From Bacteroidales bacterium (GTDB lineage: Bacteria; Bacteroidota; Bacteroidia; Bacteroidales; UBA932), in assembly GCA_024401695.1 (NCBI GenBank), contig JAKSKN010000002.1:124001-188000 (forward strand): DNA of 64,000 nucleotides, in the 5' to 3' direction. This document shows, one piece after another, positions 20,222-36,607 of the stretch; the stretch's first letter is position 1; each line of letters begins with the position of its first letter. Position numbers and translations under genes: made by a program. Under the pieces are notes generated by a model. It was not told the DNA's origin, searched no databases, and was given only the letters and a program-made list of their open reading frames with translations.

Positions 20222-21577
20222 TTATTTTTTGATAGGGAACTTGAATGCAAGCCAGCCCATTATGAGGGCGATTCCGGCCGGAATCAGCGAGAACAGGGAC
20301 CAGACCATTGTGCGTACGGAATCCGTTACGGTTGCCGGATCAATGATAAGATTGCCAACATCATTACGAATCATCTCTGCGCCTGCAAGACCGAGGAAAA
20401 GAGCGATGAGGGAACCTGAAATGGCACCGCCGAGTTTCTGGGCCATAGTGCCTGAGGAGAAGATGAGGCCGGTTGAGGATGTGCCGAATTTTTCAGTCGC
20501 ATAGTCGGCTACGTCGGCATACATCGACCAGAGGAGCGGTGAGTAGATGCCTACGCCGACTGACGTGAGAACCACCAGGGCAATCATCAGCCAGATGTAT
20601 TTCGGACTCATCGGGACAAAGAAGAATGCCACAGAGAACACAACGCATATTGCTGATGCGATGATGAATGCAAGTCTCTTTGATCCCACGCGCTTGGTGA
20701 AGGCAGGGGAGAGGGCACCGAATATCATACAGGTGACTTCTCCGAAAGCCATAAACACGCTGAAGTTGATGATGAAGCTTCCGAGTGTCACATTCCCTCC
20801 AAGGCAGTAGCTGAATATATAGCCTGCAACGGCATAGCGGAATCCGTTGAAGAAATTCGTGCAGAGCCCGGCGAGTGTGAGGTAAACCCAAGGTCTGTTC
20901 TTGAACAGGTTCACAAACTGGCTGAACGAATATTTTTCAGCGCGCTTCGGCTTGATGCGCTCTTTGGTGAAGAGTCCGCAGAGCAGGGTCATCACTGCGG
21001 CGAGTGAGCCGAAAATGATTCCTATGATGGTGTATTGATGAGCATCTGTGCCTCCGATGAGCTTCTGAATGTATGGAAGTGAAAGCAGGGTGATGAATCC
21101 CATTGCGTATGCGCCTACCATACGGAATGATGAGAACTGGTTCTTTTCGTTGTCGTCATCAGTCATCACGCCGAGAAGCGAACCGTACGGCACGTTGACG
21201 GCGGTGTAAATGGCCATCATCAGCAGATAGAGGGTGTATGTATAGATGCGCTTCCCGACAGGCCCCAGGTCCGGGGTGTGCAGCAGAAGCGCGAATATGA
21301 GGCCGAACGGGATGGCGCCGAAAATCAGCCACGGACGATAGGTGCCCCAGCGTGACTGTGTGCGGTCCGCGAGGCTGCCCATAATTGGATCGGTGACAAC
21401 GTCAAACAAACGCGCCAGCAGCATCAGAGCTGCTGCGTCTGCGAAAGAAAGCCCGAATACGTCGGTGAAGAACAGGGGGAATGCGATGGACATTATCTTC
21501 CAGGTGATTCCGCCTGCAGCCGCATCGCCGAGAGCATATGCGATTTTTTCTTTAAGAGAACATTTTGTGGTGGCCAT
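20222..21577 (-). CDS. GPH-family sugar:cation symporter (MFS)
   Basis: Inner-membrane glycoside-pentoside-hexuronide type symporter of 451 residues with about 12 hydrophobic helices. The N-terminus (EKIAYALGDAAAGGITWKI), the DVVTDPIMGSLADRTQSRWGTYRPW loop, here split by DPIMGSLADRT and SRWGTYRPWL, and YGSLLGVMTDD are standard for the family. In mannan loci of Bacteroidota such symporters import mannobiose or related disaccharides. It is the first gene of the operon leading to GH36 and has a plausible -7 box directly upstream. Confidence 0.9.
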   Translation of the reverse strand: MATTKCSLKEKIAYALGDAAAGGITWKIMSIAFPLFFTDVFGLSFADAAALMLLARLFDVVTDPIMGSLADRTQSRWGTYRPWLIFGAIPFGLIFALLLHTPDLGPVGKRIYTYTLYLLMMAIYTAVNVPYGSLLGVMTDDDNEKNQFSSFRMVGAYAMGFITLLSLPYIQKLIGGTDAHQYTIIGIIFGSLAAVMTLLCGLFTKERIKPKRAEKYSFSQFVNLFKNRPWVYLTLAGLCTNFFNGFRYAVAGYIFSYCLGGNVTLGSFIINFSVFMAFGEVTCMIFGALSPAFTKRVGSKRLAFIIASAICVVFSVAFFFVPMSPKYIWLMIALVVLTSVGVGIYSPLLWSMYADVADYATEKFGTSSTGLIFSSGTMAQKLGGAISGSLIALFLGLAGAEMIRNDVGNLIIDPATVTDSVRTMVWSLFSLIPAGIALIMGWLAFKFPIKK

Positions 21578-21895: not shown

Positions 21896-23053
21896 CTACC
21901 TATTTTCATTCAAATCGATAAGTCTGTTCAATCGTTTTACGGTCTCACCCGTGGCAAGTCCGTCCGGGAGAGTGTTCATGCAATAGTCCACGAGTCTGTC
22001 GACCGTTGATGTCGCAACGTGGAGCCTGGTGTCGGAAGATGCGTAGTAGATGAATACCTTGCCGTCTTCGTCTGCGATCCAGCCATTGGAGAAAAGGACA
22101 TTGAGAACGTCACCGACATATTCCCCGCCTTCCGGGGCCATGAAGAATCCAGCTGGCTGTGCGATGACCTTCGTCGGGTCTTCCAGCGCTGTCATATACA
22201 TATACAGCACATATCTGAGGCCGGAAGCGCAGTATCGCACTCCGTGGGCGAGATGGAGCCAGCCTTTCTCCGTCCTGATAGGTTGAGGGCCTTCTCCGTT
22301 CTTTGCCTCAGTGATGGTATGATAATGCCGCGGGCTGATGATGATCTGCTCCTTGACCTCGGCATCCGTTATGTCATCGACCAGCGCCCATCCTATGCCG
22401 CCGCCGCTGCCTGTCTCGATGAAGCAGTCCTGTGGCCGTGTGTACAGCGCGTACTTGCCGTTCACGAATTCAGGATGCAGGACAACATTGCGCTGCTGGT
22501 TCTTGCATCTGAGATCCGGCAGCCTTTCCCAATTGACGAGATCCTTCGTGCGGGCTATGCCGCATGAGGCTGTCGCCGCGGAGATGTCCTGCTCTGCATC
22601 GTGGTCCTTGCGCTCCACGCAGAACAAACCGTATATCCAGCCGTCCTCGTGACGCGTGAGTCTCATATCATATATGTTGGTGGCCGGCTCTCCATATTCC
22701 GGCATTGTGACGGGACGCGGCCAGAAAGTGAAGTTATCTATGCCGTTCGGGCTTTCGGCTACGGCGAAGAACGACTTCCGGTCAGCCGCCTCTGTCCTTG
22801 CCACAATCACATATTTGTCACCCCATTTTATGGCGCCGCCGTTGAATGTCGCGTGGACCGCGAAGCGCTCCATCAGGTATGGGTTGCGTTCCTTGTTGAA
22901 ATCGTACCGCCACTCCAACGGTGCGTGGCCGCCCGTCAGGACAGGGTGGATATATCTTTCGTACACGCCATTGCCCTCTATCGGCTCGTTGCGCCGCTCT
23001 ATGAGGGCCTTGTGCCGGTTTCTCAATAATTTCTCTCTCTCTTCAAAAGTCAT
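21896..23053 (-). CDS. GH130 mannosyl-glucose phosphorylase
   Basis: Family GH130 phosphorylase of 385 residues, most like subfamily 1 4-O-beta-D-mannosyl-D-glucose phosphorylase, which yields mannose 1-phosphate and glucose. There is no signal peptide, so it is cytosolic. The probable catalytic aspartate is Asp129 in [54 protein letters not shown] and [18 protein letters not shown] are family blocks, the GSGGGIGW loop being typical of the mannosyl-glucose subgroup. It follows the GH26 gene by one base and pairs functionally with the 2-epimerase at 43244-44422, which would supply its substrate. Subfamily assignment is from memory of motifs. Confidence 0.92.
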
Positions 23054-23054
23054 A

Positions 23055-24182
23055 TCAGTTCAGGAATAAGGTTTTTTCGCTTTCCGCAAAAGTTTTGAAA
23101 TCCGCTTCTGAGCGACTGCCCGGGAATGGGGCGTAGTAATGAACGTCGCGGCGGCCTTCCTCGCTGGTGTTGCGCCAAGTGAGAACGTATGATACCGGGA
23201 ATCCGTCGAGTGCCGGCATCAGTACCTCGGTCCACCAGTTTTCGTACTGGAGACTCTCGAAGCCGGTTTCTGTAACGGCAAGTATCTTGTTATGTTCTTC
23301 TGCGATCTCAGTCATACAGCCCAGCAGCTCTCTCATCTGTGCTATGAATGCGGCATTGGTGGCCTCAATGTTCTCCATCCCGGGATGTGACGGCTCATAC
23401 TGGTCGAGGCCGATGATGTCGACATAATCGTCGCCAGGATACCTTTCCATCCATTTTTCGAAGTCCTTCTGCAGGCCGTTCGGTGATATGGCCCACACAA
23501 GGTTGTCCAGGCCGCGGTCCTTGACGAGGTAGTCGTATGTCATCACCCAGAGAGCGTTGTATTCCTCTGCCGAGCAGAGTCCCGCACCCCACCAGAACCA
23601 GCCTCCGGTGTGTTCGTGCCAAGGACGGAATATGACGGGGATTTCCTTTATCTGCTCAAGATAGTCTCCCACCTTGCCCAGCCAGCCCATGAACAAATCG
23701 TGACGCCCTCCGCCCGGAAGGATGGATTTGACGACAGTCGTGTCGCTCACATCCCAGGCGTCGCCGCCGGTAAGCGGATTCCGCAGATGCCAGCTCATAG
23801 TGACTATGCCGCCGCGTGCGTGATGTTTTTTTGCCGCTTCCAGCATTATGTCGAATTTGTTGCCGTCGAGATTCTTGCCTGCACCGTACGGGCTGTCCTC
23901 GTCAAGCTCGATCCCTCCAAGGTCAAGACCGAGGACCATAGGGTATGCACCGGCTGTGCTGAGGACATCGGAACGTTCCAGTGTGTAGTCGTTGTCTTCA
24001 TTGGCGTTCCAGTAGTGGCCGTACATAAGGTCGTCCTGGTGACCGTACATATATTTCCCGTCAATTACAGCCTGCTTCAGTGCAGATATTGTATTATTAT
24101 CCTTTCCGGCAGGGGCCTGCCCGCAAGAGGCGGCAAGTATGCAAATGGCAAGCGTCAGGGGTAGGTTAGGTTTATGCGACAT
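23055..24182 (-). CDS. GH26 endo-beta-1,4-mannanase lipoprotein
   Basis: Endo-mannanase of family GH26, 375 residues, exported as a lipoprotein ([10 protein letters not shown], cysteine 20). Catalytic residues are visible: acid/base Glu190 in [16 protein letters not shown] and nucleophile Glu305 in [18 protein letters not shown]-type opening (here [14 protein letters not shown]) and [10 protein letters not shown] are standard GH26 blocks. It would cleave beta-mannan, glucomannan or galactomannan to oligosaccharides or mannobiose at the outer membrane or in the periplasm. It is the first gene of a two-gene operon with GH130 and has a good upstream promoter. Confidence 0.95.
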
Positions 24183-24271: not shown

Positions 24272-25600
24272 TTATTTTGATGAAATGATTCCGAGGTCCG
24301 GAATGTTATATGATTTCAGTGTTTTTTCATAAAGATGAGAGTCTTTCTGAGGAAGGATGAAAGGACTCGTAACGTTCCCATCTTCATCGATATGGCAGAA
24401 GTAGGGCCTTCCGTACTGGCCGTCTCCCCGCTTGCTGGCAAATACGATCCAGCGGGAGTTGGAGGACCAGCTGTGATAAGTATCAGAACGGTCGGAATTG
24501 ACGGCGTCCATCGGCATCGCCGTGCCTGTGCGGAGATCTATCAGCGCAAGGTCGCATTCCTGGTGCCAGATAGGGAAAGTCCCATAATCCGCGACTGTGA
24601 AGAGCAGCCATTTTCCGTTGGGGGACGCCTTGGGATGGCAGGCCGATGCATCGTGCTTTGATGCATCCCAGACGATGACGGGCTCGCCGGTGCTGCCGTC
24701 TGTGGAATCAAAGGAAACTTTGAAAAGGGAATACTTGAGCTTCTCGATATCCTGTGGAAGCAGGACGCTGTCAGCGGCGCAATAGTAGATGTATGTGCCG
24801 TCGCCACTGAAACACGGGAATGTTTCAAGGACATCGGCGCGTGCCAGATTTCCGGGTGTCAGGATGTTCCCGCTGTCGAAGTCGGTGATGCAGACGTCGG
24901 ATTCCGTATCGTACACTTCAAGCCTGCGGTCGGCAAGAGTGTGGAATCCGGGAATGATTATGTTTGAGGAGAATACGCCCCAGCGGCCGTCGGGATGAAG
25001 GTCACCGTACACGGTGCCTGAAACCATCCCGTCCCGCCTGAGCTGATGCCTTGTGATATTTCCGTCACGGTTCAAGACCGCAGCGCCTTTCGGCCCCCGG
25101 ATATAATACATCGAATTGCGTCCCTTGTGGATATGGCAGTTGACACAGGAATTCCCGGTGTCCTCCCAGGAGATGATGGATTCTTCTTCAAAGGAGGAAA
25201 GGTCGCGTTCGCGGATTTCCACGCGGTCCCACACTTCATAGCCGGGTTCGATAAGGCGGTATGTAAGGTACCTGTCGATGCTGTCACGGCTCACGTATAT
25301 GGCCCAGTCTCCAAGCAGGCTGCTGCTGACGCTGATGGTGTCGGCGAGTTTCAGCTTCTCCCATTCTTCGGCGGGGATGTTGACTTCCCGGCCGCGGATG
25401 CGGAGGCTCCGGTCTCCGGCACTGAAAGTCGTGACAGCCTTGCCTGACCCCGCCCCGAGGTAATGGAAGTTCAGCGGTGCGATGTTGCATGGAACTGTTG
25501 CGCCGCTGTAGTCCGGGAACATCGAAATGTCTCCGGACGAGCTGGTGCAGGCCGTCAGTATCAGTGAAAGCAGGATTGCCGGCAGAAGTCTATTTTTCAT
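24272..25600 (-). CDS. CxxCH beta-propeller (TolB/PD40-like) lipoprotein 1
   Basis: Exported lipoprotein of about 442 residues (MKNRLLPAILLSLILTAC, cysteine 18); the start at 25600 gives this signal and an 11-base overlap with the upstream gene. Residues 152-156 form CVNCH, a haem-c attachment motif, just before a propeller region with WD40/PD40-like repeats such as GDLHPDGRWGVFSSN, ETFPCFSGDGTYIYYC, HPKASPNGKWLLFTVADYG and YHSWSSNSRWIVFASKRGDG. Two paralogues in this window share MAPLNF/IAPLNF, the CxxCH and the same repeat order. Function unknown; haem binding or thioether chemistry is inferred from the motif only. Not part of the Tol-Pal system despite the propeller. Confidence 0.8.
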   Translation of the reverse strand: MKNRLLPAILLSLILTACTSSSGDISMFPDYSGATVPCNIAPLNFHYLGAGSGKAVTTFSAGDRSLRIRGREVNIPAEEWEKLKLADTISVSSSLLGDWAIYVSRDSIDRYLTYRLIEPGYEVWDRVEIRERDLSSFEEESIISWEDTGNSCVNCHIHKGRNSMYYIRGPKGAAVLNRDGNITRHQLRRDGMVSGTVYGDLHPDGRWGVFSSNIIIPGFHTLADRRLEVYDTESDVCITDFDSGNILTPGNLARADVLETFPCFSGDGTYIYYCAADSVLLPQDIEKLKYSLFKVSFDSTDGSTGEPVIVWDASKHDASACHPKASPNGKWLLFTVADYGTFPIWHQECDLALIDLRTGTAMPMDAVNSDRSDTYHSWSSNSRWIVFASKRGDGQYGRPYFCHIDEDGNVTSPFILPQKDSHLYEKTLKSYNIPDLGIISSK

Positions 25601-26561
25601 TTCTCTGTGCAAATTTGTAATAGAACCAGTAGCTGTCGCCGAACGATTTCTGGAGATTATCCAGCGTTTCCCCTCTGTCGAATGCTTCGGAGAATGACGT
25701 GAACTCAAGGTAGGTGTCGTAGTTCACACTGAAATGGTCAATCCATTCCTCGCCGGTATTCCCCGACGATGCCATATAGATCAGGGCTGCTTCCTCGAAC
25801 AGACGGCTGGACTTTTTTCCGGGCACGAAATCCCGGACGAATGCTGCTATGTCCTTGGTCAGCAAGTCGTAGCACAGCAGGTATTCATATGCCATCAGGT
25901 TGGCCGGGTTGGCTTCAAGAAGCATCAGAAGGGGCGTGCGGACGTCTGTTGCGGAATGAAGTACATCGGTCTTCGGGGCCAGGGGAGCGCGGCTGCGCCA
26001 GTAGTCTCCGACCGGTCCGTCCAGAAGGCGGATGTATTTCTCCGCGGCCCTGGTGTCTCCCTTCGCGAGATTGATCTCAGCCAGTCGGCGGATATACCTT
26101 TCTCCGCTTTGGCTGGGCGAGAATATCATTCCGAGAATGGTGTGGTGCTCGGCCATCGTCAGTTCTCCGAGCTGCCACCAGACCTCGCCGGCCTGGGCCA
26201 TCACAAAGCGTGATTCTTTCTCTCCCATAGGAAGGAAAAGTCCTCGTTCAAATGGCTGATAATAGTGCATCAGGCTGTCTGCAAGGCATCCGTGCATCGC
26301 ATTGGCAAGGTTGTGGTAGTAGGTCCCGATCTCCGATTTGCGGTCGGAGGCTGTAAGTTCCGCGACTTTCTCCCAATTGCCGCGGTCGGCCTCCACTGCG
26401 AGGGAAAACAGCCATTCGGTATATTCGTCAGGCTCGCCGAATGCTGCCACCCCCTGTTCCTCTGAAATGTCAGAAGAACGGAAATATGCATCCCGATAGC
26501 TTGTGGCGGGAGCGCAGGACGCGAGAAGCGCTGCAATTGCCAATGATATGAAAACTCTCAT
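25590..26561 (-). CDS. TPR-like lipoprotein related to the DUF6057 C-terminal domain
   Basis: A lipoprotein of about 323 residues (MRVFISLAIAALLASC, cysteine 16). It consists of helical repeats and has no membrane segments. Its middle (VWWQLGELTMAEHHTILGMIF, LAEINLAKGDTRAAEKYIRLL) and its tail (FGDSYWFYYKF) correspond to the soluble C-terminal half of the two DUF6057-type membrane proteins nearby (LAETNIVNGDYEVARKYIGAL and YGKTYWFYYFY in the first), so it looks like a membrane-free version of that half. It is followed, with overlap, by propeller lipoprotein 1, just as the membrane versions are followed by propellers 2 and 3. It is divergent from the second pair. Function unknown. Confidence 0.72.
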   Translation of the reverse strand: MRVFISLAIAALLASCAPATSYRDAYFRSSDISEEQGVAAFGEPDEYTEWLFSLAVEADRGNWEKVAELTASDRKSEIGTYYHNLANAMHGCLADSLMHYYQPFERGLFLPMGEKESRFVMAQAGEVWWQLGELTMAEHHTILGMIFSPSQSGERYIRRLAEINLAKGDTRAAEKYIRLLDGPVGDYWRSRAPLAPKTDVLHSATDVRTPLLMLLEANPANLMAYEYLLCYDLLTKDIAAFVRDFVPGKKSSRLFEEAALIYMASSGNTGEEWIDHFSVNYDTYLEFTSFSEAFDRGETLDNLQKSFGDSYWFYYKFAQRNEK

Positions 26562-26582
26562 AGAGTTGTCTGCATGTATTTT

Positions 26583-26614
26583 GTAAAGATATGAATTCTT
26601 TTTGATATCTTTAC
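26583..26614. promoter_or_regulatory. Symmetrical divergent promoter/operator
   Basis: GTAAAGATAT and ATATCTTTAC, two exact ten-base inverted arms 12 bases apart. Each contains TATCTTTA, one base off the TAnnTTTG -7 box, facing its own gene (leaders of about 17 and 19 bases). A second small palindrome, ACGTGT...ACACGT, follows at 26613-26628. The arrangement suits joint control of the two divergent units by one dimeric regulator, but no regulator is known. Confidence 0.5.
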
Positions 26615-26637
26615 GTGTTAATACACGTAATGTGCTG

Positions 26638-28347
26638 ATGAAAATCAAACAGAATCATACCCGTGCAGCTGTGTCGGTTCTTGGCTTTCTGGCGGCTCTC
26701 CTGTTCTTCCGCTTCGAATATGCCTACCACCTGCACTTTCAAGAGCAATATCAGCTGTTTGAATGGACCTGGGCGTACTTTCTGGATGTCGTGCGCGCTC
26801 CCGGAGGGCTGGCTGACTGGCTCGGCCGCTGCCTTACCCAGTTCTTTTATTATCCGACGGCCGGAGCTGTCATCATTGCGGCCTGTCTGACCGGTATCCA
26901 TCTTCTGACCTTTGCAGTATGTCCGAAGAAAAGCGGTCTGTCGTTTGCCCTGAGCTTTGCTCCCGCCGTTGCAATGTGGGTGGCAATGTGCGATGAAAAC
27001 ATCCTTATGGGATCGCCTGTGGCGGTCTTGATGTCGCTTGCCGTCGTCCCGGCAGTGTCCGCCGTCAGCAGTGCCGGTGTGCGCAATGCTGTCGAATTGA
27101 TGTCTGTTCCGCTGCTGTACTGGTTTGCCGGTCCGGTCGCTCTGATATCCGTGTGCATTCTCGCGGCACGCGAAAGGAAAGCAGCTTTGACGCTTGCTGC
27201 TGCGGTGTTGTTCCTGCTGTCCGTTTTCGTGTCGCAATATCTTTGCGCATATTCAATCGAGCGCCTCGTGATCGGAGTCCATTATCATCGGTTCCGTGCA
27301 ATTCCGGCCTGGCCGGTGTATGTGTCGGCCCTGCTCTGCGCGGCTGTCGTGCTTTTGTCGGCGCTCAAACTCTCAGACCGCCCGCACCCTGCCGTCGTGG
27401 CGGCCGCTTCCATTGCCATCGCTGCGTCTGCGGTATTCCTGGTGATACGCTCGGATGACAGGGCGAAGGAGGAACAGATGCATTTCGATTTCATGCTGCG
27501 TATGCGGATGTGGAACAGAATGATGATGTATGCCGACAGGCATATGCCGGTGACGCCATTCAATGTCACCTGCAACAATATAGCACTGGCCCATTCTGAC
27601 AGAATGGCCGACAGTATGTTCGAATATTATCAGAATGGCGTCGATGGCCTGCTGCCTCAGTTCGAGCGTGAATATGTGGGGCCGCTCGCCACGGCGGAGG
27701 CGTATTGGGAAATGGGTATGGTGAATACTGCGCAGAGGTTCATCTTTGAGGCGCAGGAAGCTATCCCGGACTATCAGAAGAGCGCCCGTTGCTACAAGCG
27801 TCTGGCCGAAACCAATATCGTGAACGGCGATTATGAGGTCGCGCGCAAATATATCGGCGCATTGAAGAACACAATCTATTACAGGAAGTGGGCTTCTGAT
27901 GCGGAAAAGCTTCTCGGCGATGAGGATGCGATAATGAATGTTCCGGAGTATGCACTCAAACGTGCCCAGCGTTTCCGTTCACGTGATTTCTTCTTCTCGT
28001 ATGACGAGATGGACTCGATGCTTGGACTGCTGTTCCTTGAGAACAGGCAGAACAGGGTCGCCTTCGATTACCTGCTGGCGTGGGCTCTGCTGAACAAGGA
28101 CATCGAGAGGTTTGTTGAGTGCCTCGGTCTCGTCCAGTATTCCATTATGCCCAAGGGGTATCAGGAAGCCCTGGCGATGCAATGGGCTATGACGCACGAT
28201 GATGCATCGGGTATCCCATCGGCTGTGGAGCCCAGGACCGTCGCGCGTCTGAATCAGTTCATCGCTGACTCCAGGACCGGCATCGGCGCTGACAAGATGG
28301 AGGAACGTTATGGAAAGACGTATTGGTTCTATTATTTCTACAGATAG
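26638..28347 (+). CDS. DUF6057-type membrane/TPR protein A
   Basis: Large membrane protein of about 569 residues, apparently of the DUF6057 family seen in Bacteroidota. The N-terminal half has about eight hydrophobic helices, starting at residue 9; between the first two is the conserved block HFQEQYQLFEWTW...GGLADWLGRCLTQFFYYP. From about residue 285 it is soluble and helical with TPR-like units (AEAYWEMGMVNTAQRFIFEAQE, LAETNIVNGDYEVARKYI), ending YGKTYWFYYFYR. The start at 26638 (MKIKQN) gives a normal first helix. The following propeller lipoprotein starts one base after its stop codon region, so the two form an operon. I know of no experimentally defined role. Confidence 0.75.
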   Translation: MKIKQNHTRAAVSVLGFLAALLFFRFEYAYHLHFQEQYQLFEWTWAYFLDVVRAPGGLADWLGRCLTQFFYYPTAGAVIIAACLTGIHLLTFAVCPKKSGLSFALSFAPAVAMWVAMCDENILMGSPVAVLMSLAVVPAVSAVSSAGVRNAVELMSVPLLYWFAGPVALISVCILAARERKAALTLAAAVLFLLSVFVSQYLCAYSIERLVIGVHYHRFRAIPAWPVYVSALLCAAVVLLSALKLSDRPHPAVVAAASIAIAASAVFLVIRSDDRAKEEQMHFDFMLRMRMWNRMMMYADRHMPVTPFNVTCNNIALAHSDRMADSMFEYYQNGVDGLLPQFEREYVGPLATAEAYWEMGMVNTAQRFIFEAQEAIPDYQKSARCYKRLAETNIVNGDYEVARKYIGALKNTIYYRKWASDAEKLLGDEDAIMNVPEYALKRAQRFRSRDFFFSYDEMDSMLGLLFLENRQNRVAFDYLLAWALLNKDIERFVECLGLVQYSIMPKGYQEALAMQWAMTHDDASGIPSAVEPRTVARLNQFIADSRTGIGADKMEERYGKTYWFYYFYR

Positions 28348-28348
28348 G

Positions 28349-29779
28349 ATGAGAAGGATATACATATTTTCGGTCGCTATGCTTCTTGCCGCATGCTCAC
28401 GTTATGACGGGCCGGCGCCTGAGGCATTCGATGGCATTATCTACCCCGATTATGTCGGTGTCACGGTACCCGCTGACATAGCTCCGCTCAATTTTGACTA
28501 TACCTCGAAAGAGTCTTCGGACGCAGTCACGACCTTTATCGTCGGCGATATGACGGTAAGCTTCCGCGGAGGCAGGGTAAGGTGGAAGGAAGGGAAGTGG
28601 AAGAGGATGCTTGCTGCCGCCGCCGGCAGTGACATCGCTGTCCGCAGCACGGTTCCTGACACTTCCTGGGTGATCCACGTGAGTACGGATCCCATCGACG
28701 ATGCCGTCGCATACAGGCTTATCGAGCCGGGCTATGAGGTCTGGAGCAAGATGGGCATCTATGAACGTGAGCTGAGTTCCTTCAAGGAGCGCGCGCTGAT
28801 AGAAAACACCGAATTTGAGGGATGTGTCAACTGCCACGAGTTCAACAGGGGAGCGCCGGACAATTTCAGCCTCCATATCCGCGGAACCCACGGCGCCACT
28901 CTGATTCAGAATAATGGCGTGATAGCGGCATACGATACCAAAACCGACAGTACTCTGGGCTTCTGTGTATATCCGTACTGGCACCCTTCAGGGAAATATA
29001 TCATTTACTCGACCAACAGCACCCGCCAGAGTTTCCATATGCAGGTGGACAAGCTGATCGAGGTGTTCGATTCTGCGTCCGACCTTCAAGTTTACGAGCC
29101 GGACTCCGGAGAGCTGTTCACGGCTCCGCAGGTGAAGACAGATGAGTATTGGGAGACGTTCCCGTCTTTCAGCCCCGACGGCAGGACCGTCTATTTCTGC
29201 CGTGCCGCGGGTCAGCCTATACCGGAAGGTCTGACAGAGACGAGATACAATCTGTGCAAAGTCTCCTTCAATCCTGATACCGGAGAGTTCGGAGATGACG
29301 TCGAGGTGATCCTGGATGCGGCTTCAGAGGGGAAGAGTGTCTCGTTCCCGAAGCCATCATATGATGGAAGATACCTGATGTACACTCTGTCCGACTACGG
29401 ACAGTTTTCTATCTGGCACCACGAGGCCGACCTCTGGCTTCTTGACCTTGAGACCGGTGAAACAAGAAGAATCGATGAGGTCAACAGCCCGGACACCGAG
29501 AGTTTTCACAACTGGTCCTCGAATTCCAGATGGTTCCTCTTTGCCAGCCGCAGGGATGACGGCCTTTTCACAAGGATATATTTCGCTCATATAGGAGAGG
29601 ACGGAACCATAGGCAAGCCATTCATGCTGCCGCAGAAAGAACCGCTTTCATTCTATCGCCAGCTTTTCCGCTCATACAATGTCCCAACTTTCGTCACGGG
29701 ACCGGTCTCTCTGGATAAAGTTAACGCCCGGAAGATCATCAATTCTTCCGAGCGTGTACCTTTCAGATTCAGGAAATAA
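28349..29779 (+). CDS. CxxCH beta-propeller lipoprotein 2
   Basis: Lipoprotein of about 476 residues (MRRIYIFSVAMLLAAC, cysteine 16), paralogous to the propeller proteins at 24272-25600 and 30334-31794. CVNCH at residues 159-163 is followed by the propeller, with YPYWHPSGKYIIYSTNS, ETFPSFSPDGRTVYFCRA, FPKPSYDGRYLMYTLSDYG and FHNWSSNSRWFLFASRRDDG. The N-terminal block YPDYVGVTVPADIAPLNF is shared by all three. The start is placed at 28349, one base after the DUF6057-type stop, because it gives a proper lipobox. Expected in the periplasm or at the outer membrane. Function unknown. Confidence 0.8.
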   Translation: MRRIYIFSVAMLLAACSRYDGPAPEAFDGIIYPDYVGVTVPADIAPLNFDYTSKESSDAVTTFIVGDMTVSFRGGRVRWKEGKWKRMLAAAAGSDIAVRSTVPDTSWVIHVSTDPIDDAVAYRLIEPGYEVWSKMGIYERELSSFKERALIENTEFEGCVNCHEFNRGAPDNFSLHIRGTHGATLIQNNGVIAAYDTKTDSTLGFCVYPYWHPSGKYIIYSTNSTRQSFHMQVDKLIEVFDSASDLQVYEPDSGELFTAPQVKTDEYWETFPSFSPDGRTVYFCRAAGQPIPEGLTETRYNLCKVSFNPDTGEFGDDVEVILDAASEGKSVSFPKPSYDGRYLMYTLSDYGQFSIWHHEADLWLLDLETGETRRIDEVNSPDTESFHNWSSNSRWFLFASRRDDGLFTRIYFAHIGEDGTIGKPFMLPQKEPLSFYRQLFRSYNVPTFVTGPVSLDKVNARKIINSSERVPFRFRK

Positions 29780-29791
29780 ACCGGGCCGGCC

Positions 29792-30337
29792 TTATTTCTT
29801 GTCAGGATAAAGACTCAGCAGGAATTTCCCCAGGGTGCTGCCGTCGCCAAGGGCGTGGGCCATATTCTGCGAACGGGACTTATAGGCCGCGTGGGTGGAA
29901 TCCGCCTCTTCTTTGCAGCCTGACTGCAGCATGGCAACCGTGAGGCTGCGGGTGCTTTCCGTCAGGTTCTTCCACACTTCCAGCGAGTCGTTTTGTCTGG
30001 TGCCGTAGCCGGAACTCTTTTCACCGATGGTTACATAGATGTCTCCGGGTTCGGTGACGACCAGAAGGTTCTGTGTGCCTATGCGTCTCATCGCTTCGAT
30101 GCGCAGGTCTCCCAGCCTTTCGACCTCTCCCTTGAATTCGAATTTCTGATCCTTGATGAACGTGGAGTCAAGGTTGTCCTTTGAAGGAAGGTTCACGGGC
30201 TCAGTTGCCGGAACAAGAAAGATGCAGGCTCCTTCAAGATCGGGATTTGAAACATACCCGTGGATGCGGAACTGATTTTTCGGAGCGCAGGATGCCAGCA
30301 GTATGGCAATCACCGCAAAACTGAATATCCTTTTCAT
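29792..30337 (-). CDS. DUF4369-like lipoprotein
   Basis: Lipoprotein of 181 residues (MKRIFSFAVIAILLASC, cysteine 17). The first 100 residues form a beta-rich domain resembling the DUF4369 domain often found N-terminal of thioredoxin-like proteins in Bacteroidota (FRIHGYVSN...IFLVPA, STFIKDQKFEFKGEV, NLLVVTEPGDIYVTIG); the C-terminal part is helical. No thioredoxin CxxC follows. It is the last gene of the DUF6057B-propeller 3 operon and overlaps the propeller stop by four bases. The DUF4369 call is by pattern and could be wrong. Confidence 0.6.
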   Translation of the reverse strand: MKRIFSFAVIAILLASCAPKNQFRIHGYVSNPDLEGACIFLVPATEPVNLPSKDNLDSTFIKDQKFEFKGEVERLGDLRIEAMRRIGTQNLLVVTEPGDIYVTIGEKSSGYGTRQNDSLEVWKNLTESTRSLTVAMLQSGCKEEADSTHAAYKSRSQNMAHALGDGSTLGKFLLSLYPDKK

Positions 30338-31794
30338 TTTTTAATTGTTACGTTTTTCCTTTCATCTGAGAATGCCTCCCTGTATGCGGCGGTGACGTTG
30401 AATTTCACTTTAGTCCTGGTGAAGTCGGGCACATTGAAGGTGAACAGGGTGCCGTGGTAGAATTCTTCCGGATTGCGCTGCGGCAGGACGAACGCCTTGG
30501 TCGTATTGCCGTCTTCGTCAATTGAGGAGAAATAGATCTGCGAATACAGAGAGTCGTCGCGCCGGCTGGCAAAGAGGAACCAGTGGGAATCAGAAGACCA
30601 GTTGTGGAAGCTTTCATCGTAGTTCGAGTTCGCCTTTGCTGCAGGGAAAGTGCGGCCGTCGGCGAGGTTCATTATCCACAGGTCTGACTCCTTGTGATTG
30701 ATTGGGAAGTTGCCGAAATCGGCATATGAGTATAACAGCCAGCGGCCATCGTATGACGGACGCGGGAAGGTGACGCTTTTCCCCGCGCTGACAGCGTCGA
30801 TGAGCGTGGTGACTTCATCCCCGAAGCATCCTTCTTCTGCGTCGAAGCCGATGGAACACAGGTCGTAATGGACGTCTTCGCAATGTGCCGGCACTTCAAC
30901 GTATGGCGCGCGGCAGAAATAGAGAGTCCTGCCGTCACTGGAGAATGCGGGATAGGTTTCGAAAGCATCCGTCATCAGAAGGGGGCTGAGAATGTATTCG
31001 TCGGTGCGCACATCGTGTACGATGACATCAGAGGCATCGTCATAAACTTCGATATAGCGTTCGTTGCGTCCGGTCCAGAACAACTGGTGGATATGGTTGT
31101 TGGAATGTGCGACGAAATCTCCCGAAGGGTGCCAGTAGGAATAGACGGCATTGCTGATGGTGCTGTCGGTTTTTGTGTTCATCCATTTGCGGTCACCATC
31201 GATTTGGACCACCGTTGCACCGTGCTTTCCGCGCACGTGGAAAAGGAAACGGGATGGGTCGGTGGCGTTTGCCGTATGGCAACCGACGCATTGCCCCGGT
31301 ATGGCATTGCCTTCGATGATGGGCTCCTCGTCGAAGTTGTGGATGTTGCGCTGATAGATGCCGATTTTGCTGTATGTCTCGTAACCCGGTGCGAACCGGC
31401 GGTATGTGACTCCATAGTCCGTCAGCGGGTACGGGCTGACCATCATCTTGAAGTTGACGAACTGGAACCACTTGCCGTCCTTGTGGCCAAGCACCGTGAA
31501 TGTGAGGGTGTCGCCGATATTCTGCGAAGCCAGTTTCTGCCATTTCCTGACATTAAAGCCGGCATATCTGCCAGAAGCGGTAAGTTCGCCGCCCTTTCCC
31601 CCTTTCACTTTGACAAAGACCTTGTCATAGCCTCCCCGGAGATTGAAATTCAGTGGAGCCATTTCTGCAGGGAAGGTGACACCGATGTAGTCGGGATAGA
31701 TGTCGGGAAGACGCGGCTCGGGGACCGTCTGCCCAGTCGAGCAGGCGATCAGCAGCAGCGGGGCCGAAAGCAGGGCAAGAAGTAATTTTTTCAT
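30334..31794 (-). CDS. CxxCH beta-propeller lipoprotein 3
   Basis: Lipoprotein of 486 residues (MKKLLLALLSAPLLLIAC, cysteine 18), the third paralogue. CVGCH lies at residues 169-173, preceded by the block IYPDYIGVTFPAEMAPLNF and followed by propeller repeats YSYWHPSGDFVAHSNN, ETYPAFSSDGRTLYFCRA, FPRPSYDGRWLLYSYADFG and FHNWSSDSHWFLFASRRDDS. It overlaps the upstream DUF6057-type gene and the downstream DUF4369-like gene by four bases each, so all three should be made together. The conserved CxxCH, single per protein, suggests covalent haem c, but no cytochrome c maturation genes are in the window. Confidence 0.8.
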   Translation of the reverse strand: MKKLLLALLSAPLLLIACSTGQTVPEPRLPDIYPDYIGVTFPAEMAPLNFNLRGGYDKVFVKVKGGKGGELTASGRYAGFNVRKWQKLASQNIGDTLTFTVLGHKDGKWFQFVNFKMMVSPYPLTDYGVTYRRFAPGYETYSKIGIYQRNIHNFDEEPIIEGNAIPGQCVGCHTANATDPSRFLFHVRGKHGATVVQIDGDRKWMNTKTDSTISNAVYSYWHPSGDFVAHSNNHIHQLFWTGRNERYIEVYDDASDVIVHDVRTDEYILSPLLMTDAFETYPAFSSDGRTLYFCRAPYVEVPAHCEDVHYDLCSIGFDAEEGCFGDEVTTLIDAVSAGKSVTFPRPSYDGRWLLYSYADFGNFPINHKESDLWIMNLADGRTFPAAKANSNYDESFHNWSSDSHWFLFASRRDDSLYSQIYFSSIDEDGNTTKAFVLPQRNPEEFYHGTLFTFNVPDFTRTKVKFNVTAAYREAFSDERKNVTIKK

Positions 31795-33248
31795 TTCTTC
31801 ACCTCCATCTGTTCAAGCTGTTTCCAAGCCATGAAATAGTATCCGGCCATATAGTTGTTCTTGTTCTGGCTATAGAGGATTCCGAGCATCTTGTCCATCT
31901 CGGGATAGTAGTACAGGAAGTCTTTCTCGAACCTGACCTGCCTGAGATAGGCGTATACCGGATCCGTTTCAACTGCAGTCTCATCCATTATGAAGCGCTC
32001 GTGCTCTTCCGCCCAATTTCTGTAGAAGAGGCTCTGCTTCAGGATGTCAAGGTATTTCCCTGCGACCTTGTAGCGTCCATTGACGATCTGGCATTCCGCC
32101 ATCCGTTTCATGAACCTGCCGCTTTTGCGCAGGTTGCCTATGGATTCCTGCGAATCGAATGAATATCTGAGCGCGGAATTGACCATACCCAGTCTCCAGA
32201 AGGCTTCGGCCGTGGATGTGTTGGACAGATAGTCGCGTACGTTTGGCATCAGCAACCCCTCTGTACCGCACTGATAGAATTCGAACATCCGCTCGAGATT
32301 GCCTGTCATGAAGAGGGCCAGGTTGAGGCTGACGCAGGAGACGTTGCTGTGCGGCTGGTATTTTTCGGCGCGGGCGACAAGCTCGTCCCATTTCTCATTG
32401 CGGACCAGCTGATCGTATGCGATGACTTCATAGGTGTCACGGTCGTAGGACCTTGAGACCCAGAATGCCGTGCCGCAGAGGATAATTGCATACACTGCGA
32501 TGCAAGTGGCAAGGGGCTTTCTGAATGACGGCAGGATGCTGATGATGGCAGGAACGGCGACGGACGAAAGTATTGTCACCGTCTCAAGGACGGGATGTAC
32601 AAGTGGTGAGCGGAAATAGTCGAATCCGAGAAGGATCTGCTTCCAGGGATATTGCTGGAGGAGCGTGAAGCGGGCGGTGACTACGAGCGCGGCGGAATAG
32701 GCAAGCCACAGGAGCGATCTGGCGCTGCGTTTTCTGACGATGACGTAGATGACGAACACCCAGGCCGCAGGCCCCGCCAGCCAAAGTCCCGCCGGGATGC
32801 CGATGGCAGCAACTGCGGCGTTGTCGCCGGCCTTCTTGTATAGCAGACACAGGAGAAGCGACAGAATGACCGCCATCCCGAGGCAAGGCAAGACATCGTG
32901 GTCGCCCATATGGACGAGCAGCAGTGCGGATGGGATGAAACTCAGCGGATACCAGGAGATGTCACGCGTGTCGCCGGTGCTCCAGGTCATCCTCTGGATG
33001 GCAACGGATACAAGGGCGAGCAGAAGCGCTCCGAGCCACGGGATGCAGTTGAACTGGGTGATGAACTCGCCCAGCCAGTCGGCCAGCCCCCCGGCCATGC
33101 CCAGGCGTTCGGCCGCATAGCTTCCGGACCAGAGGAACAGCTGATTCTGCTCCTGCAGGCCGAGCGCCTGCGGAAAGGCAAGCAGCCAGAACAGGAATAT
33201 TCCCGCTCCGAACAGCGCAGACAGAGTGTTTTTGGTGAGTCGCTCCAT
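31791..33248 (-). CDS. DUF6057-type membrane/TPR protein B (shorter)
   Basis: Paralogue of the membrane protein at 26638-28347, about 485 residues. It shares LQEQNQLFLW...GGLADWLGEFITQF between the first two membrane helices and the TPR-like C-terminal half (AEAFWRLGMVNSALRYSFDSQE, MAECQIVNGRYKVAGKYL, MDKMLGILYSQN), but stops about 70 residues earlier and lacks the YWFYY tail. The start at 33248 (MERLTKN) is favoured because a perfect -7 box ends seven bases upstream, which excludes the longer in-frame start at 33317. First gene of a three-gene operon with propeller 3 and the DUF4369-like lipoprotein. Confidence 0.73.
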   Translation of the reverse strand: MERLTKNTLSALFGAGIFLFWLLAFPQALGLQEQNQLFLWSGSYAAERLGMAGGLADWLGEFITQFNCIPWLGALLLALVSVAIQRMTWSTGDTRDISWYPLSFIPSALLLVHMGDHDVLPCLGMAVILSLLLCLLYKKAGDNAAVAAIGIPAGLWLAGPAAWVFVIYVIVRKRSARSLLWLAYSAALVVTARFTLLQQYPWKQILLGFDYFRSPLVHPVLETVTILSSVAVPAIISILPSFRKPLATCIAVYAIILCGTAFWVSRSYDRDTYEVIAYDQLVRNEKWDELVARAEKYQPHSNVSCVSLNLALFMTGNLERMFEFYQCGTEGLLMPNVRDYLSNTSTAEAFWRLGMVNSALRYSFDSQESIGNLRKSGRFMKRMAECQIVNGRYKVAGKYLDILKQSLFYRNWAEEHERFIMDETAVETDPVYAYLRQVRFEKDFLYYYPEMDKMLGILYSQNKNNYMAGYYFMAWKQLEQMEVKK

Positions 33249-33262: not shown

Positions 33263-33284
33263 CGAAAATTTGCAGTGAAAAAAA

Positions 33285-33310
33285 AGCCGCGGGGGGAAAG
33301 CCCCGCGGCT
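33285..33310 (-). terminator. Terminator of the susC-susD-SGBP operon
   Basis: Perfect ten-base GC-rich stem AGCCGCGGGG/CCCCGCGGCT with a six-base loop, followed on the minus strand by a run of eight Ts. It lies 22 bases after the stop of the glycan-binding lipoprotein gene. Confidence 0.92.
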
Positions 33311-33332
33311 CAATCATATGATTCCCGAAGGA

Positions 33333-34811
33333 TTATTCGTTGATGGCCTTGAACTGCCAGAAGGTGATTTCACCCCAGCTGCCTGCGCCGTTGCCCTTGG
33401 TGTAAACGAGAGACATATGGTCTGCATCGATGTACATAAGGTCGAACTCGGTCACAGCCTTTCCGCCTTCGTTGATTGAGAATGGGAAGAGGATGGCCGG
33501 GTCCTTGGTGACAAGCTTGCCGAGCTGCCAGTTGCCGCTGGCCTTGCGGGTTGCGTCATAGTCCTTCACTTCGTATGTGCTGGCCTTGATGACAGAACCG
33601 TCTCCTGCGTATGAGGTGATGTCACCGCCTGCGGTGAATTCCATATAGGCATCGCTGCTCTCTGCTCCGGTGGCTGCGCCGCCCGGTGCATGGCTGAGCT
33701 GATCCATAAGTCCTTCCGGAGTGTCAACTCCCCACCACTTGCCGTCGATGACACCAGGGCCGAATGCTGCGCCTGCGCCTGAGTTGCCGGCGTTGCCCCA
33801 GCAGGTGTTCTCGCCGTCCCAGGTCCACTTGCGCTTGTCGTTTGCGTTGAGCGCACCTACGTAGTCGTCGCCGTTCTTGAACATCCAGAAGGTGATTTCA
33901 CCCCAGCTGCCTGCGCCGTTGCCCTTGGTGTAAACGAGGGTCATATAGTTAGGGTCGAGATACATGATGTCGAATGTGTCGACAGCCTTTCCACCTTCGT
34001 TGATTGAGAATGGGAAGAGGATGCTGAGAGGCTCGCTGACCTTGAGGGTGCCGACAGACCATCCGTCAGGACGTGATGGGTTGTAGTCCTTGATGTCGAA
34101 GGAACCGCTCTTGATGAGAGCTCCGTCGGCTGTGTAGGCTGCAACATCGCCGGCATCGGAGAATATCATATATGCTCCGTTGCTCTCTGCTCCGGTGGCT
34201 GCGCCGCCCGGTGCGTGGCTGAGCTGATCCATAAGTCCGTCAGGAGTGTCAGGACCCCACCACTTGCCGTCAACGTTGTTCCAGGTGAAGGCTGAGCCTG
34301 CGCCTGAGTTGCCGGCGTTGCCCCAGCAGGTGGCACCGTTGTCATAATGCCACATCCACTTTTTCGAACCGTTGTCGCCGGCGATGTTGAGGATTTCAGG
34401 AGCAAGGTCTGAAGGAACCTTCACGGTAACCTGTTTTGAAGTCTCGACGAATGAGCCGTCGATGTTGTAAGCGCGGAACCAGAGGGTCTGATTAGGATCT
34501 GAACCTCTTCTAGGAAGGAACTTGAAGAAACCGGCGTTGCCCTGGCTGTACACTTTCTCGGTGCCGTCGGCAGCTCGTGTGAAAGCCAAACCTGAATAGC
34601 CCTTCATATTGTATGAAATATAGTTGCCGTCAGGTGAAGGAACATACTCCTTGTTCTCGTTCAAGTCGTACTGCGCGATCTGGAGATCCTGGGCAAGCTG
34701 TGCCTCGCTGAGGGCGGCCATAGGTGCAGGATTCTCAATCAGAGTCGGATTGCAGGAAGCAAAAGCTGCAAGTACTGCAATGGACAATGCTACATATAAT
34801 GTTCTTTTCAT
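33333..34811 (-). CDS. Surface glycan-binding lipoprotein with duplicated domain
   Basis: Lipoprotein of 492 residues (MKRTLYVALSIAVLAAFASC, cysteine 20) encoded directly after susD, the usual place of the surface glycan-binding protein of a SusCD system. After an N-terminal Ig-like part (YISYNMKGYSGLAF, LWFRAYNIDGSF) come two tandem copies of a domain of about 176 residues, roughly 145-318 and 320-492. Each has TCWGNAGNSGAG, DGKWWG.DTP.GLMDQLSHAP, GAATGAES, LFPFSINEGGKAV and LVYTKGNGAGSWGEITFW. The copies are close to identical over long stretches, including at DNA level. Mannan binding is inferred from context; aromatic residues (W in GKWWG, GSWGE) could form the sugar platform. Confidence 0.8.
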   Translation of the reverse strand: MKRTLYVALSIAVLAAFASCNPTLIENPAPMAALSEAQLAQDLQIAQYDLNENKEYVPSPDGNYISYNMKGYSGLAFTRAADGTEKVYSQGNAGFFKFLPRRGSDPNQTLWFRAYNIDGSFVETSKQVTVKVPSDLAPEILNIAGDNGSKKWMWHYDNGATCWGNAGNSGAGSAFTWNNVDGKWWGPDTPDGLMDQLSHAPGGAATGAESNGAYMIFSDAGDVAAYTADGALIKSGSFDIKDYNPSRPDGWSVGTLKVSEPLSILFPFSINEGGKAVDTFDIMYLDPNYMTLVYTKGNGAGSWGEITFWMFKNGDDYVGALNANDKRKWTWDGENTCWGNAGNSGAGAAFGPGVIDGKWWGVDTPEGLMDQLSHAPGGAATGAESSDAYMEFTAGGDITSYAGDGSVIKASTYEVKDYDATRKASGNWQLGKLVTKDPAILFPFSINEGGKAVTEFDLMYIDADHMSLVYTKGNGAGSWGEITFWQFKAINE

Positions 34812-34825
34812 AATCTTAGCGGATA

Positions 34826-36595
34826 TTAGTCAGTCCAACCTGCGAAGTCTGATGCTGAAGTGCCCCAGCCTTCGTTCTGAACATACTTGTACTCTTCACC
34901 AGCTGAAGCTGAGAGAGAAATCTGAGATGAAGGGATCGAGATGAAACCCTTTGTAGCGGCGTAGCGATTGCCATAACCTCCGTTGAATTTGGCTGCGTGG
35001 TTCGTGCCTTCTACGCCGTTGTTATAGCAATGTACTCCTTCCTGTGCGTCGAGGGCCTTCTTGGCATATTCCTCGCCGTAGCGGCGGAGGTCGCCGAAGC
35101 GTACGCCTTCGAATGCAAGCTCCCAGCGGCGCTCGTTGCGGAGGTTCTCTTCAGTGAGTGGCTTCGGATCAAGTCCGGCGCGGCTGCGCACTGCATCGAA
35201 TGAAGCCTGGCTGTTGTTGAGCTCGGCATCCATAAGGAGAACTTCGGCAAAACGGATCATGATCATATCGTCAATGAGGTTGAGCTGGAAGTTGTTGTTG
35301 TCATCGTTGTACCAGGACAGGCCAGGGTACATTTCGTTGACGTATGAATACCAGAAGTCGCCTGAACCGTCGCTCTTGCGTCCCATAATAGGCATATTCT
35401 TGATCTGATAGTATCCGGTTTCCTGGATGTTGCTGTCAGAACCGTACTTGTAGCCGTTGAACTTGCTGACACTCACGAGCGATGCGTCCATACGAGGGTC
35501 GTTAGGCTCTGCCTTCTGCCAGTCAGCCACGAGCTGCGGAGATACAGGGCACATACCCCAGCCCTGACCGAACGGGAATGACTTGCCGCCGTCAGTGTTG
35601 GATGCATTGCGGATACCCATAAAGAGGCAGGTCTGGTTGGAATAACCGATGGTAGTGCCCCAGGATGGCTGGGTGTTGAACTTGATTACGAACATAGCTT
35701 CAGGGTTGACGCCTGCGTCGTCGCATACGTACTTGTAACCATTGCCCTTGAAGAGAGAGAGCTCATCTTCAACGCAGATGCGGTTGGTGTAGGCCCAGAG
35801 GTTGTGATAATCGTCAACGAGTCTGTAGCCTGAATTGTTGACGCAGTCTGAGATGGCTGCGGCGACATCTGCCTTGGAAAGAGTCTCTCCGTTAGGGAGC
35901 GTCACGTTCTCGGAACCATAGAATCCGGAATAGAACAGATATACGCGTCCGAGGAGAGCCTCTGCGCAGTATTTGTCAACGTGACCGTTGCCGCGGTCGC
36001 TGACGGTTGCAGGCATGATCTTGCTGGCCTCGAGGCAGTCCTGAAGGATCTGTCCCCAGAGAGCCTCGCCGCTAACCTGAGGCTGGGTTGCATCGGCAGC
36101 GGTTGAGACAGGACAAGGGATGTTGCCGAACATTGAGGCAAGTTCATAGTAGTACCAGGCGCGGAGGAAGAGAGCCTCGCCCTTGTACTGATTGAGAGTG
36201 GCGTCGTCAAGACCGCATCTGTCAAAGGTCTCAAGAGCGGTGTTTGCACGGGCGATGCCCTTGTAGCGGTCGCAATAGAAGCCGTTGTACATATCGGCGC
36301 CGAAGTTCATCAGAAGATCTTCCGCCTGCATAGCCTGGTCGTTGTTGCCGCCGCCGCCGAGACAGTCGTCAGATGACGCCAGAGACCACAGGAAGTGGTT
36401 GAAATGGACATTGTTGCCGATGGAAACGTTGAGGTTGTTGTAGATACCGGTAAGCATCTGGGCAGCCTCTTCGGCGTTTGCCGGGAAGTCTTGTGCGGTC
36501 TTTGACCAATAGTTGGTCGAGTCAAGATATTTCTCGCAAGAAGCAAAACTCAAAGCAATGAATGCGACTGCAATAAATCTGAATATATTTTTCAT
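34826..36595 (-). CDS. SusD/RagB family nutrient-binding lipoprotein
   Basis: SusD-like outer-membrane lid protein, about 589 residues, that delivers glycans to its SusC channel. The start is placed at ATG 36595 (MKNIFRFIAVAFIALSFASC, cysteine 20); an upstream GTG at 36604 adds only three residues. TPR-like helices carry ANTALETFDRCGLDDATLNQYKGEA in part, seen as LNQYKGEALFLRAWYYYELASMFG, shown here as GEALFLRAWYYYELASMFG. The C-terminal RagB block has NERRWELAFEGVRFGDLRRYG. It starts 12 bases after susC and precedes the glycan-binding lipoprotein, in one operon. Confidence 0.95.
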   Translation of the reverse strand: MKNIFRFIAVAFIALSFASCEKYLDSTNYWSKTAQDFPANAEEAAQMLTGIYNNLNVSIGNNVHFNHFLWSLASSDDCLGGGGNNDQAMQAEDLLMNFGADMYNGFYCDRYKGIARANTALETFDRCGLDDATLNQYKGEALFLRAWYYYELASMFGNIPCPVSTAADATQPQVSGEALWGQILQDCLEASKIMPATVSDRGNGHVDKYCAEALLGRVYLFYSGFYGSENVTLPNGETLSKADVAAAISDCVNNSGYRLVDDYHNLWAYTNRICVEDELSLFKGNGYKYVCDDAGVNPEAMFVIKFNTQPSWGTTIGYSNQTCLFMGIRNASNTDGGKSFPFGQGWGMCPVSPQLVADWQKAEPNDPRMDASLVSVSKFNGYKYGSDSNIQETGYYQIKNMPIMGRKSDGSGDFWYSYVNEMYPGLSWYNDDNNNFQLNLIDDMIMIRFAEVLLMDAELNNSQASFDAVRSRAGLDPKPLTEENLRNERRWELAFEGVRFGDLRRYGEEYAKKALDAQEGVHCYNNGVEGTNHAAKFNGGYGNRYAATKGFISIPSSQISLSASAGEEYKYVQNEGWGTSASDFAGWTD

Positions 36596-36607
36596 ATCAG
36601 TCACGTT

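Follow-up and report, generated by a model that had tools for sequence, protein, structure and literature searches.

We analysed a stretch of 64,000 nucleotides from a Bacteroidales bacterium (contig JAKSKN010000002.1, positions 124,001 to 188,000), hereafter the window, which carries three copies of a two-gene unit within positions 24272-33248. In each copy a DUF6057 protein (T) is encoded together with a propeller lipoprotein bearing CxxCH (P), and the two-gene pair is referred to as T-P. The first pair spans 26561 to 24272 on the reverse strand and contains T1 (25590..26561), a short lipoprotein which corresponds to the C-terminal part of DUF6057 with the multi-span membrane part absent, and P1 (24272..25600), a PD40 propeller lipoprotein with CVNCH at residue 152. 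The second pair is encoded on the forward strand from 26638 to 29779 and contains T2 (26638..28347), a full, polytopic DUF6057 protein with eight hydrophobic segments followed by a soluble domain, and P2 (28349..29779), a PD40 propeller lipoprotein with CVNCH at residue 159. The third, on the reverse strand from 33248 to 30334, contains the polytopic DUF6057 partner T3 (31791..33248) and P3 (30334..31794), a PD40 propeller lipoprotein with CVGCH at residue 169. T1 and P1 overlap by 11 bases, T3 and P3 by 4 bases, and T2 and P2 are separated by a 1-base gap. A first-pass annotation made from the sequence alone had reported these three pairs, and its coordinates and junctions were right on recheck; the glycan-locus context of all three pairs, a DUF4369 gene which overlaps one of them and a fourth pair elsewhere in the genome were missing from it.

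PF19529 (DUF6057) matched T1, T2 and T3 with E values of 4e-71, 3e-158 and 3e-117 (241, 529 and 394 bits against a cut-off of 29.8), in T1 over the C-terminal part only. PF07676 (PD40) was the sole Pfam family above cut-off in P1, P2 and P3 (E 5e-11, 3e-11 and 9e-10), all three of which start with an N-terminus of lipoprotein type and contain a single CxxCH. Identity to P2 was 41% for P1, 42% for P3 and 38% for the fourth genomic copy, with a PDY...T.P...APLNF block in common. The fourth T-P pair follows SusC and SusD directly, at approximately G000:C1:312983-315825. A divergent DUF6057 protein with a weak match (L170:3113-4366, G000:C65) was observed directly after glyA, with no P beside it in the stretch read, and probably represents a separate subfamily. 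A strong terminator-like hairpin was found at 33284-33311 on the reverse strand, between T3 and the gene at 33333-34811, and T3-P3 may be transcribed separately or with attenuation. No Rfam match was obtained within 20000-42000 of the window.

Conservation and inheritance of the T-P pair

A scan of genome contigs returned at least 554 relatives of P, and the best 80 of these together with the window gave 81 loci, which share ancestry and in which genes were called by a simple longest open reading frame (ORF) rule. By title, these best 80 came from Bacteroidia taxa, mostly Bacteroidales and Prevotella. T was located directly upstream of 168/176 P; four P were cut by contig ends and four were exceptions. 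Within a sample of 149 genomes of the family, 91 P matches were found in 29 genomes; 87 of the matches adjoined T and four were without T within 400 bases. T was upstream in 80 of the 87 and the order was reversed in seven (G001, which has T on both sides, was counted as upstream). A DUF6057 match was present in 28 of the 29 P genomes, the 29th containing a P fragment, and five further family genomes contained a weak DUF6057 match only, with no strong P. A P match was taken as strong in this sample at E <1e-30, so that six of 35 genomes with weak matches were counted as without P. The distribution was patchy, with strong P in 29/149 genomes of the family and in 5/395 genomes of a phylum sample. 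Six genomes of the phylum sample were above the DUF6057 cut-off, namely all five with strong P and one weaker case. The adjacency of T and P which the first-pass annotation had seen in this genome thus extends beyond it, and was also observed in two genomes outside the class.

The pairing rule used assigned a T to 136 of the 156 P, and the T and P distance matrices of these 136 pairs had a correlation of 0.987. When partners were swapped within loci (56 loci with two or more pairs) the correlation fell to a mean of 0.23, and did not exceed 0.37 over 500 swaps. The classes of T and of P corresponded one to one at two or four classes, and did not at three or five. Since swapping partners within loci breaks the distance correlation, the pairs have been inherited and duplicated whole, with no exchange of partners. 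The three P of the window fell into three separate groups in a tree of 60 P, each with relatives elsewhere, and no direct DNA repeat of 30 bases or longer was found. On both grounds the copies in the window are old, and a recent local tandem duplication of the three pairs was rejected. A mobile or phage element was also rejected, as T2 gave no phage match, PADLOC anti-phage models matched 0/6 proteins at E up to 0.01 and no tRNA was found in the window.

Three distant relatives of P, from distant Bacteroidota, were single proteins of about 700 residues which combine CxNCH, PD40 and tetratricopeptide repeats (TPR) (L162:2608-4716, L163:8736-10847 and L164:8675-10882). These fusions aligned over most of the length of P with CxNCH in register, and the TPRs followed at the C-terminus. 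The genomes in which they were found, in the phylum sample, contained P-like proteins (85-99 bits) but no DUF6057 match.

The CxxCH motif and the place of T and P in the cell

Exactly one CxxCH was present in 173/175 P ORFs, a count made after exclusion of one P ORF which lacked the motif and lay at a contig edge, and in 3/850 other genes of the same loci, two of these three being T proteins. With this difference the motif in P is not explained by chance. In an alignment of 167 P, which includes the three distant fusion proteins, H163 was kept in 166, R123, R140, Y300 and W395 in all 167, and W84 and N444 in 99%. The conservation of CxxCH expected from the first-pass annotation is therefore borne out across the family. 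H212 was present in 163/167 P, and H212, H357 and Q429 were conserved in P but not kept in the fusions, where H212 was replaced by Ser in all three. The CxxCH sits between the N-terminal domain and the propeller, and a lipobox pattern was found in 140/156 P. A PDB sequence search with P identified one uncharacterised protein, 2ojh (E 6e-5), together with weaker matches to TolB-like or peptidase propellers. Among the Pfam matches of P1-P3 at E up to 1 there was no PF00034-type (class I cytochrome c) domain.

A PF01578 (CcsA-type) match, taken as an indication of cytochrome c synthetase genes, was found in 26/29 strong-P genomes of the family sample against 57/120 of the others. Among genomes without NrfA the corresponding counts were 18/20 with P against 43/106, and among those without both NrfA and PF00034 they were 15/16 against 34/92. 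PF01578 was also present in 7/7 distant genomes checked. The genome from which the window derives encodes a 375-residue ResB-CcsA fusion (L098:5255-6382), which is its sole PF01578 match and has no nrf genes beside it; neither NrfA nor a PF00034 match was found there, these being the two other cytochrome families searched, and further haem proteins are possible. The CxxCH DNA pattern occurred 257 times in this genome against 173 for the reversed pattern, and among the first 100 places this was too noisy for other cytochromes to be listed. The attributes of a c-type cytochrome found for P are thus a conserved CxxCH in an exported protein and synthetase genes in the genome. The co-occurrence with CcsA-type genes lends indirect support to a covalent haem on P, and P probably carries one covalent haem c.

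As no cytochrome c domain matches P and H212 is so widely present, the CxxCH might instead not be a haem site, its Cys pair and its His, possibly together with H212, binding zinc or forming a structural disulfide. This would leave the co-occurrence with PF01578 unexplained, and in all three fusions H212 is Ser, yet CxNCH, a common haem-c motif, is kept there. We regard zinc binding or a disulfide as unlikely and favour the attachment of a single haem c at this motif.

In the average of 54 long T, eight hydrophobic segments were located ahead of a conserved soluble part, and the nearly invariant columns of T were all within that soluble part. The lipoprotein form of T1 implies that the soluble part of T would lie outside the cytoplasm. 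Over positions +2 to +6 counted from the lipid cysteine, P class means were 0.8 to 1.0 acidic residues compared with 2.2 for SusD. As the acidic stretch of SusD is absent from P, we infer that P faces the periplasm. The weight placed on the acidic signal comes from work on lipoprotein export in Bacteroidetes. A surface-exposed glycan binder as the default for P was rejected on the weak acidic signal after its lipid cysteine.

Gene context of the pairs

SusC and SusD in the related loci were assigned by clustering and by profiles built here, and not by Pfam. SusD was located within 6 kb of T-P in 69/81 loci, a raw count which was not normalised to the SusD density of each genome, and SusC and SusD were found together in 56. 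By clustering, the commonest neighbours of T-P were SusD-type genes (63/81 loci) and SusC-type genes (58/81). PF07980 (SusD) matched 8 times in the 2.65 Mb genome of the window, and each of the two T-P clusters there is immediately adjacent to one of these matches. A recurring gene order was SusC, SusD, a second gene of the SusD cluster, T, P, T, P; two consecutive SusD-cluster genes ahead of T-P were observed in many Prevotella-type loci (L032-L095, e.g. L050). Recurring neighbour clusters were GH5 with BACON (13 loci), GH10 (10), GH3 (10) and GH97 (5). A survey of 89 of the 264 neighbours of at least 220 amino acids (90 were drawn at random and one was dropped for size) gave matches to GH5 (5), GH31 (3), GH130 (3), GH94 (2) and GH43 (2), and also to ordinary genes, for example repair helicases (2). 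Since the sets of glycoside hydrolases (GH) vary between loci, T-P follows the importer and not one glycan.

The pair was present in Parabacteroides distasonis, Bacteroides fragilis, Phocaeicola massiliensis and Prevotella aff. ruminicola Tc2-24. One P. distasonis locus resembled that of the window, with the order DUF4369, T, P, T, P, GH26 protein, 'glycosidase', MFS transporter and AGE epimerase (names from annotations, with T and P assigned by profile and GH26 by Pfam). T and P are named 'DUF6057' and 'PD40 domain-containing protein' in P. distasonis records, and these names carry no function. On the B. fragilis plasmid Q1F2-p1 the order was sigma factor, FecR, SusC (in pieces), SusD, T, P and part of a GH3 gene; the SusC gene next to this pair is present in the record as three ORFs (L178:1449-4764). 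Two loci of Phocaeicola massiliensis had the orders SusC, SusD, T, P and GH123, T, P, GH35, GH2.

In the window, the three T-P pairs are located between a GH26 gene (23055..24182) and genes for SusD (34826..36604) and SusC (36608..39757; TonB-dependent, with a CarboxypepD_reg-like N-terminal domain), and the surrounding genes named here, from GH94 to the AGE epimerase, are all on the reverse strand. Beyond GH26 are genes for a GH130 mannooligosaccharide phosphorylase family protein (21896..23053), an MFS_2 sugar transporter (20222..21577), a GH5 protein (19183..20217) and a GH94 family protein (16768..19179). Beyond SusC is a gene for an AGE epimerase (43244..44422), for which the nearest NCBIfam model was cellobiose 2-epimerase (349 bits, below the 800-bit cut-off). 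From these families (GH94, GH5, MFS, GH130, GH26, SusD, SusC and epimerase) the locus appears to have the anatomy of a beta-mannan utilization locus, and by gene context, being encoded with SusC, SusD and glycoside hydrolases, the T-P pairs of the window are components of a Sus-like polysaccharide utilization locus. Between T3 and SusD a lipoprotein gene (33333..34811), with no Pfam or NCBIfam match and with relatives in 17/81 loci (window included), encodes two similar tandem parts (by eye) and seems to lie where a surface glycan-binding protein is usually encoded. A DUF4369 lipoprotein gene (29792..30337) has a 4-base overlap with the end of P3 and relatives in 11/81 loci (window included). 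A RidA-fold protein resembling FkbO/Hyg5 chorismatases, below the model cut-off, was also found in the window (44465-45448) and in 6/81 loci with the window included; relatives were located at L160:12373-13563, L037:15861-16979 and L033:4673-5713, and in L160, from outside the class, the gene is directly before T.

The glycoside hydrolase genes of several families nearby, together with the conserved polar propeller residues H212, H357 and Q429, raise the question of whether P is itself a glycan-acting enzyme. Quinohaemoprotein-like dehydrogenases and PL22-like lyases are propeller enzyme types, and in a P of either sort the haem would serve as electron relay and T as anchor. No enzyme family was above cut-off in P and the three polar residues were not kept in the fusions. 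T-P also accompanies differing hydrolase sets (GH26/GH130, GH10, GH5, GH97), unlike a substrate-specific enzyme. We judge an enzymatic P to be very unlikely, and an accessory role beside the importer is preferred.

Proposed role and comparison with known systems

We propose, with confidence a little better than even, that P is a periplasm-facing mono-haem-c TolB-type propeller which is held by its own T and is an accessory of SusCD glycan import. P would be exported as a lipoprotein, and a ResB/CcsA-type synthetase would attach one covalent haem c at its CxNCH. The TolB-like propeller of P would thereby be placed on the periplasmic side, where T, anchored in the membrane as a polytopic protein or, in the case of T1, as a lipoprotein, would hold P as its dedicated partner. 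One SusCD system is often accompanied by two different T-P types. T-P may then act under the outer membrane in the manner of a CpoB/TolB-type adaptor, docking to the SusCD importer or to its energy coupling, with the haem making either the docking contact or a local electron transfer redox-dependent. Propeller-adaptor sets of the envelope, such as TolB with CpoB or PorE, act at the outer membrane, and energy coupling on the periplasmic side is required by SusC. A redox-dependent SusCD adaptor would be our first choice and an electron relay the second. Docking to SusCD and redox gating are speculative. The first-pass annotation had interpreted each pair as a membrane-anchored complex with a covalent haem or redox-sensitive lipoprotein, an interpretation which is partly supported by the present analysis. 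The wider suggestion that a haem-c redox subunit is dedicated to the TonB-dependent SusCD importers of Bacteroidales from the gut and rumen, with paired T-P beneath the importer sensing or passing electrons and in this way gating uptake according to iron or redox state, so that glycan import would come under redox control, is put forward tentatively and we hold it to be rather doubtful.

A number of observations weigh against this proposal. The association of P with PF01578 (Fisher tests, p 2e-5 both for all 149 family genomes and for those without NrfA and PF00034) was obtained with related genomes, which are not independent, and with a match which is only a proxy for the synthetase and is also common in genomes without P (57/120). 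Three of the 29 P genomes were without PF01578, namely G081 (81% complete), G125 (90%) and G128 (82%); the P of G081 is a fragment, and as G125 has NrfA its synthetase is probably missing from the assembly. A search of the tested loci with the CcsBA of the window's own genome returned no match next to T-P. The two P ORFs without a single CxxCH were a 118-residue fragment and L095, a full-length P from which a short stretch bearing the motif is missing in frame. The mirror-tree signal fits a T-P complex and would also be expected from joint inheritance of linked genes. The fusions would favour a helical adaptor as the partner with which P works; set against this, their TPRs did not align to the soluble domain of T (hhalign probability 0.4%). 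T had been labelled a TPR protein in the first-pass annotation, and this label was not upheld, as T1-T3 matched no TPR family in Pfam at E up to 1, the nearest being RPN7 (E 0.15); for this reason the TPR fusion was not taken as proof. A PDB sequence search with T gave one insignificant match (E 0.5). Neither SusC nor SusD was within 6 kb in 11/81 loci, in five of which the sequence to either side was shorter than 6 kb. One P. distasonis T-P pair was located beside pfkA without SusCD. SusCD was likewise absent from the T-P loci L160 and L161, which come from outside the class and whose surroundings include GH3 together with a CBM9-like protein, or GH31.

These pairs without SusCD, together with the TolB-type propeller, are what would be expected if T-P were a general envelope tether or maintenance pair of the Tol-Pal or PorE-like kind which is near SusCD by coincidence. 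PorE, of the type 9 secretion system, is described as a CpoB-TolB-carboxypeptidase-Pal fusion (PMC12204202), which also fits such a pair. SusD within 6 kb in 69/81 loci does not fit a housekeeping tether, the patchy distribution (29/149 in the family, 5/395 in the phylum) is unlike that of a housekeeping gene and there is no OmpA domain in T or P. We find a tether quite unlikely and retain the accessory of SusCD import as the preferred reading.

Few systems of gut bacteria have been studied as closely as polysaccharide utilization loci. To our knowledge no c-type haem protein has been attributed to these loci, and no description or function of the T-P unit was found in the literature searched, for which most subscription papers were outside scope. 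Gut and rumen bacteria which take up plant fibre sugars carry this undescribed two-gene unit beside many of the importers concerned. If the proposal is true, glycan uptake would be linked to iron and redox chemistry and fibre use would be tied to haem supply and redox state, and a reason would be at hand for the presence of cytochrome c synthetase genes in some bacteria which lack the nitrite reductase NrfA. As T-P occurs in named species, some of them culturable, the proposal can be tested now.

Compared with known systems, P resembles mono-haem c-type cytochromes as an exported CxxCH protein in genomes with ResB/CcsA, and differs from them in having no cytochrome c domain and in the position of its motif between the N-terminal domain and the propeller. 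The likeness to TolB of the Tol-Pal system with CpoB/YbgF is that of a PD40 propeller beside a periplasmic adaptor protein (PMC12204202). P differs from TolB in the absence of the TolB N-terminal domain among its Pfam matches and in its haem motif, lipoprotein form and SusCD context, and P1, P2 and P3 scored 20.5, 34.1 and 11.2 bits with the TolB model TIGR02800 against a cut-off of 343. PorE is likewise a Bacteroidota lipoprotein which joins a propeller with TPR, whereas T-P has no OmpA domain, P has CxxCH and its partner is a separate multi-span protein without a TPR match; the PorE model NF052230 gave 11.1 bits for P1, 13.2 for P2 and none for P3 against a cut-off of 600. SusE/SusF-type proteins are surface glycan-binding lipoproteins and, like P, are encoded after SusD in the same loci. 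P differs from these in being without the acidic stretch seen in SusD, and it is a propeller with CxxCH which is nearly always accompanied by its own T.

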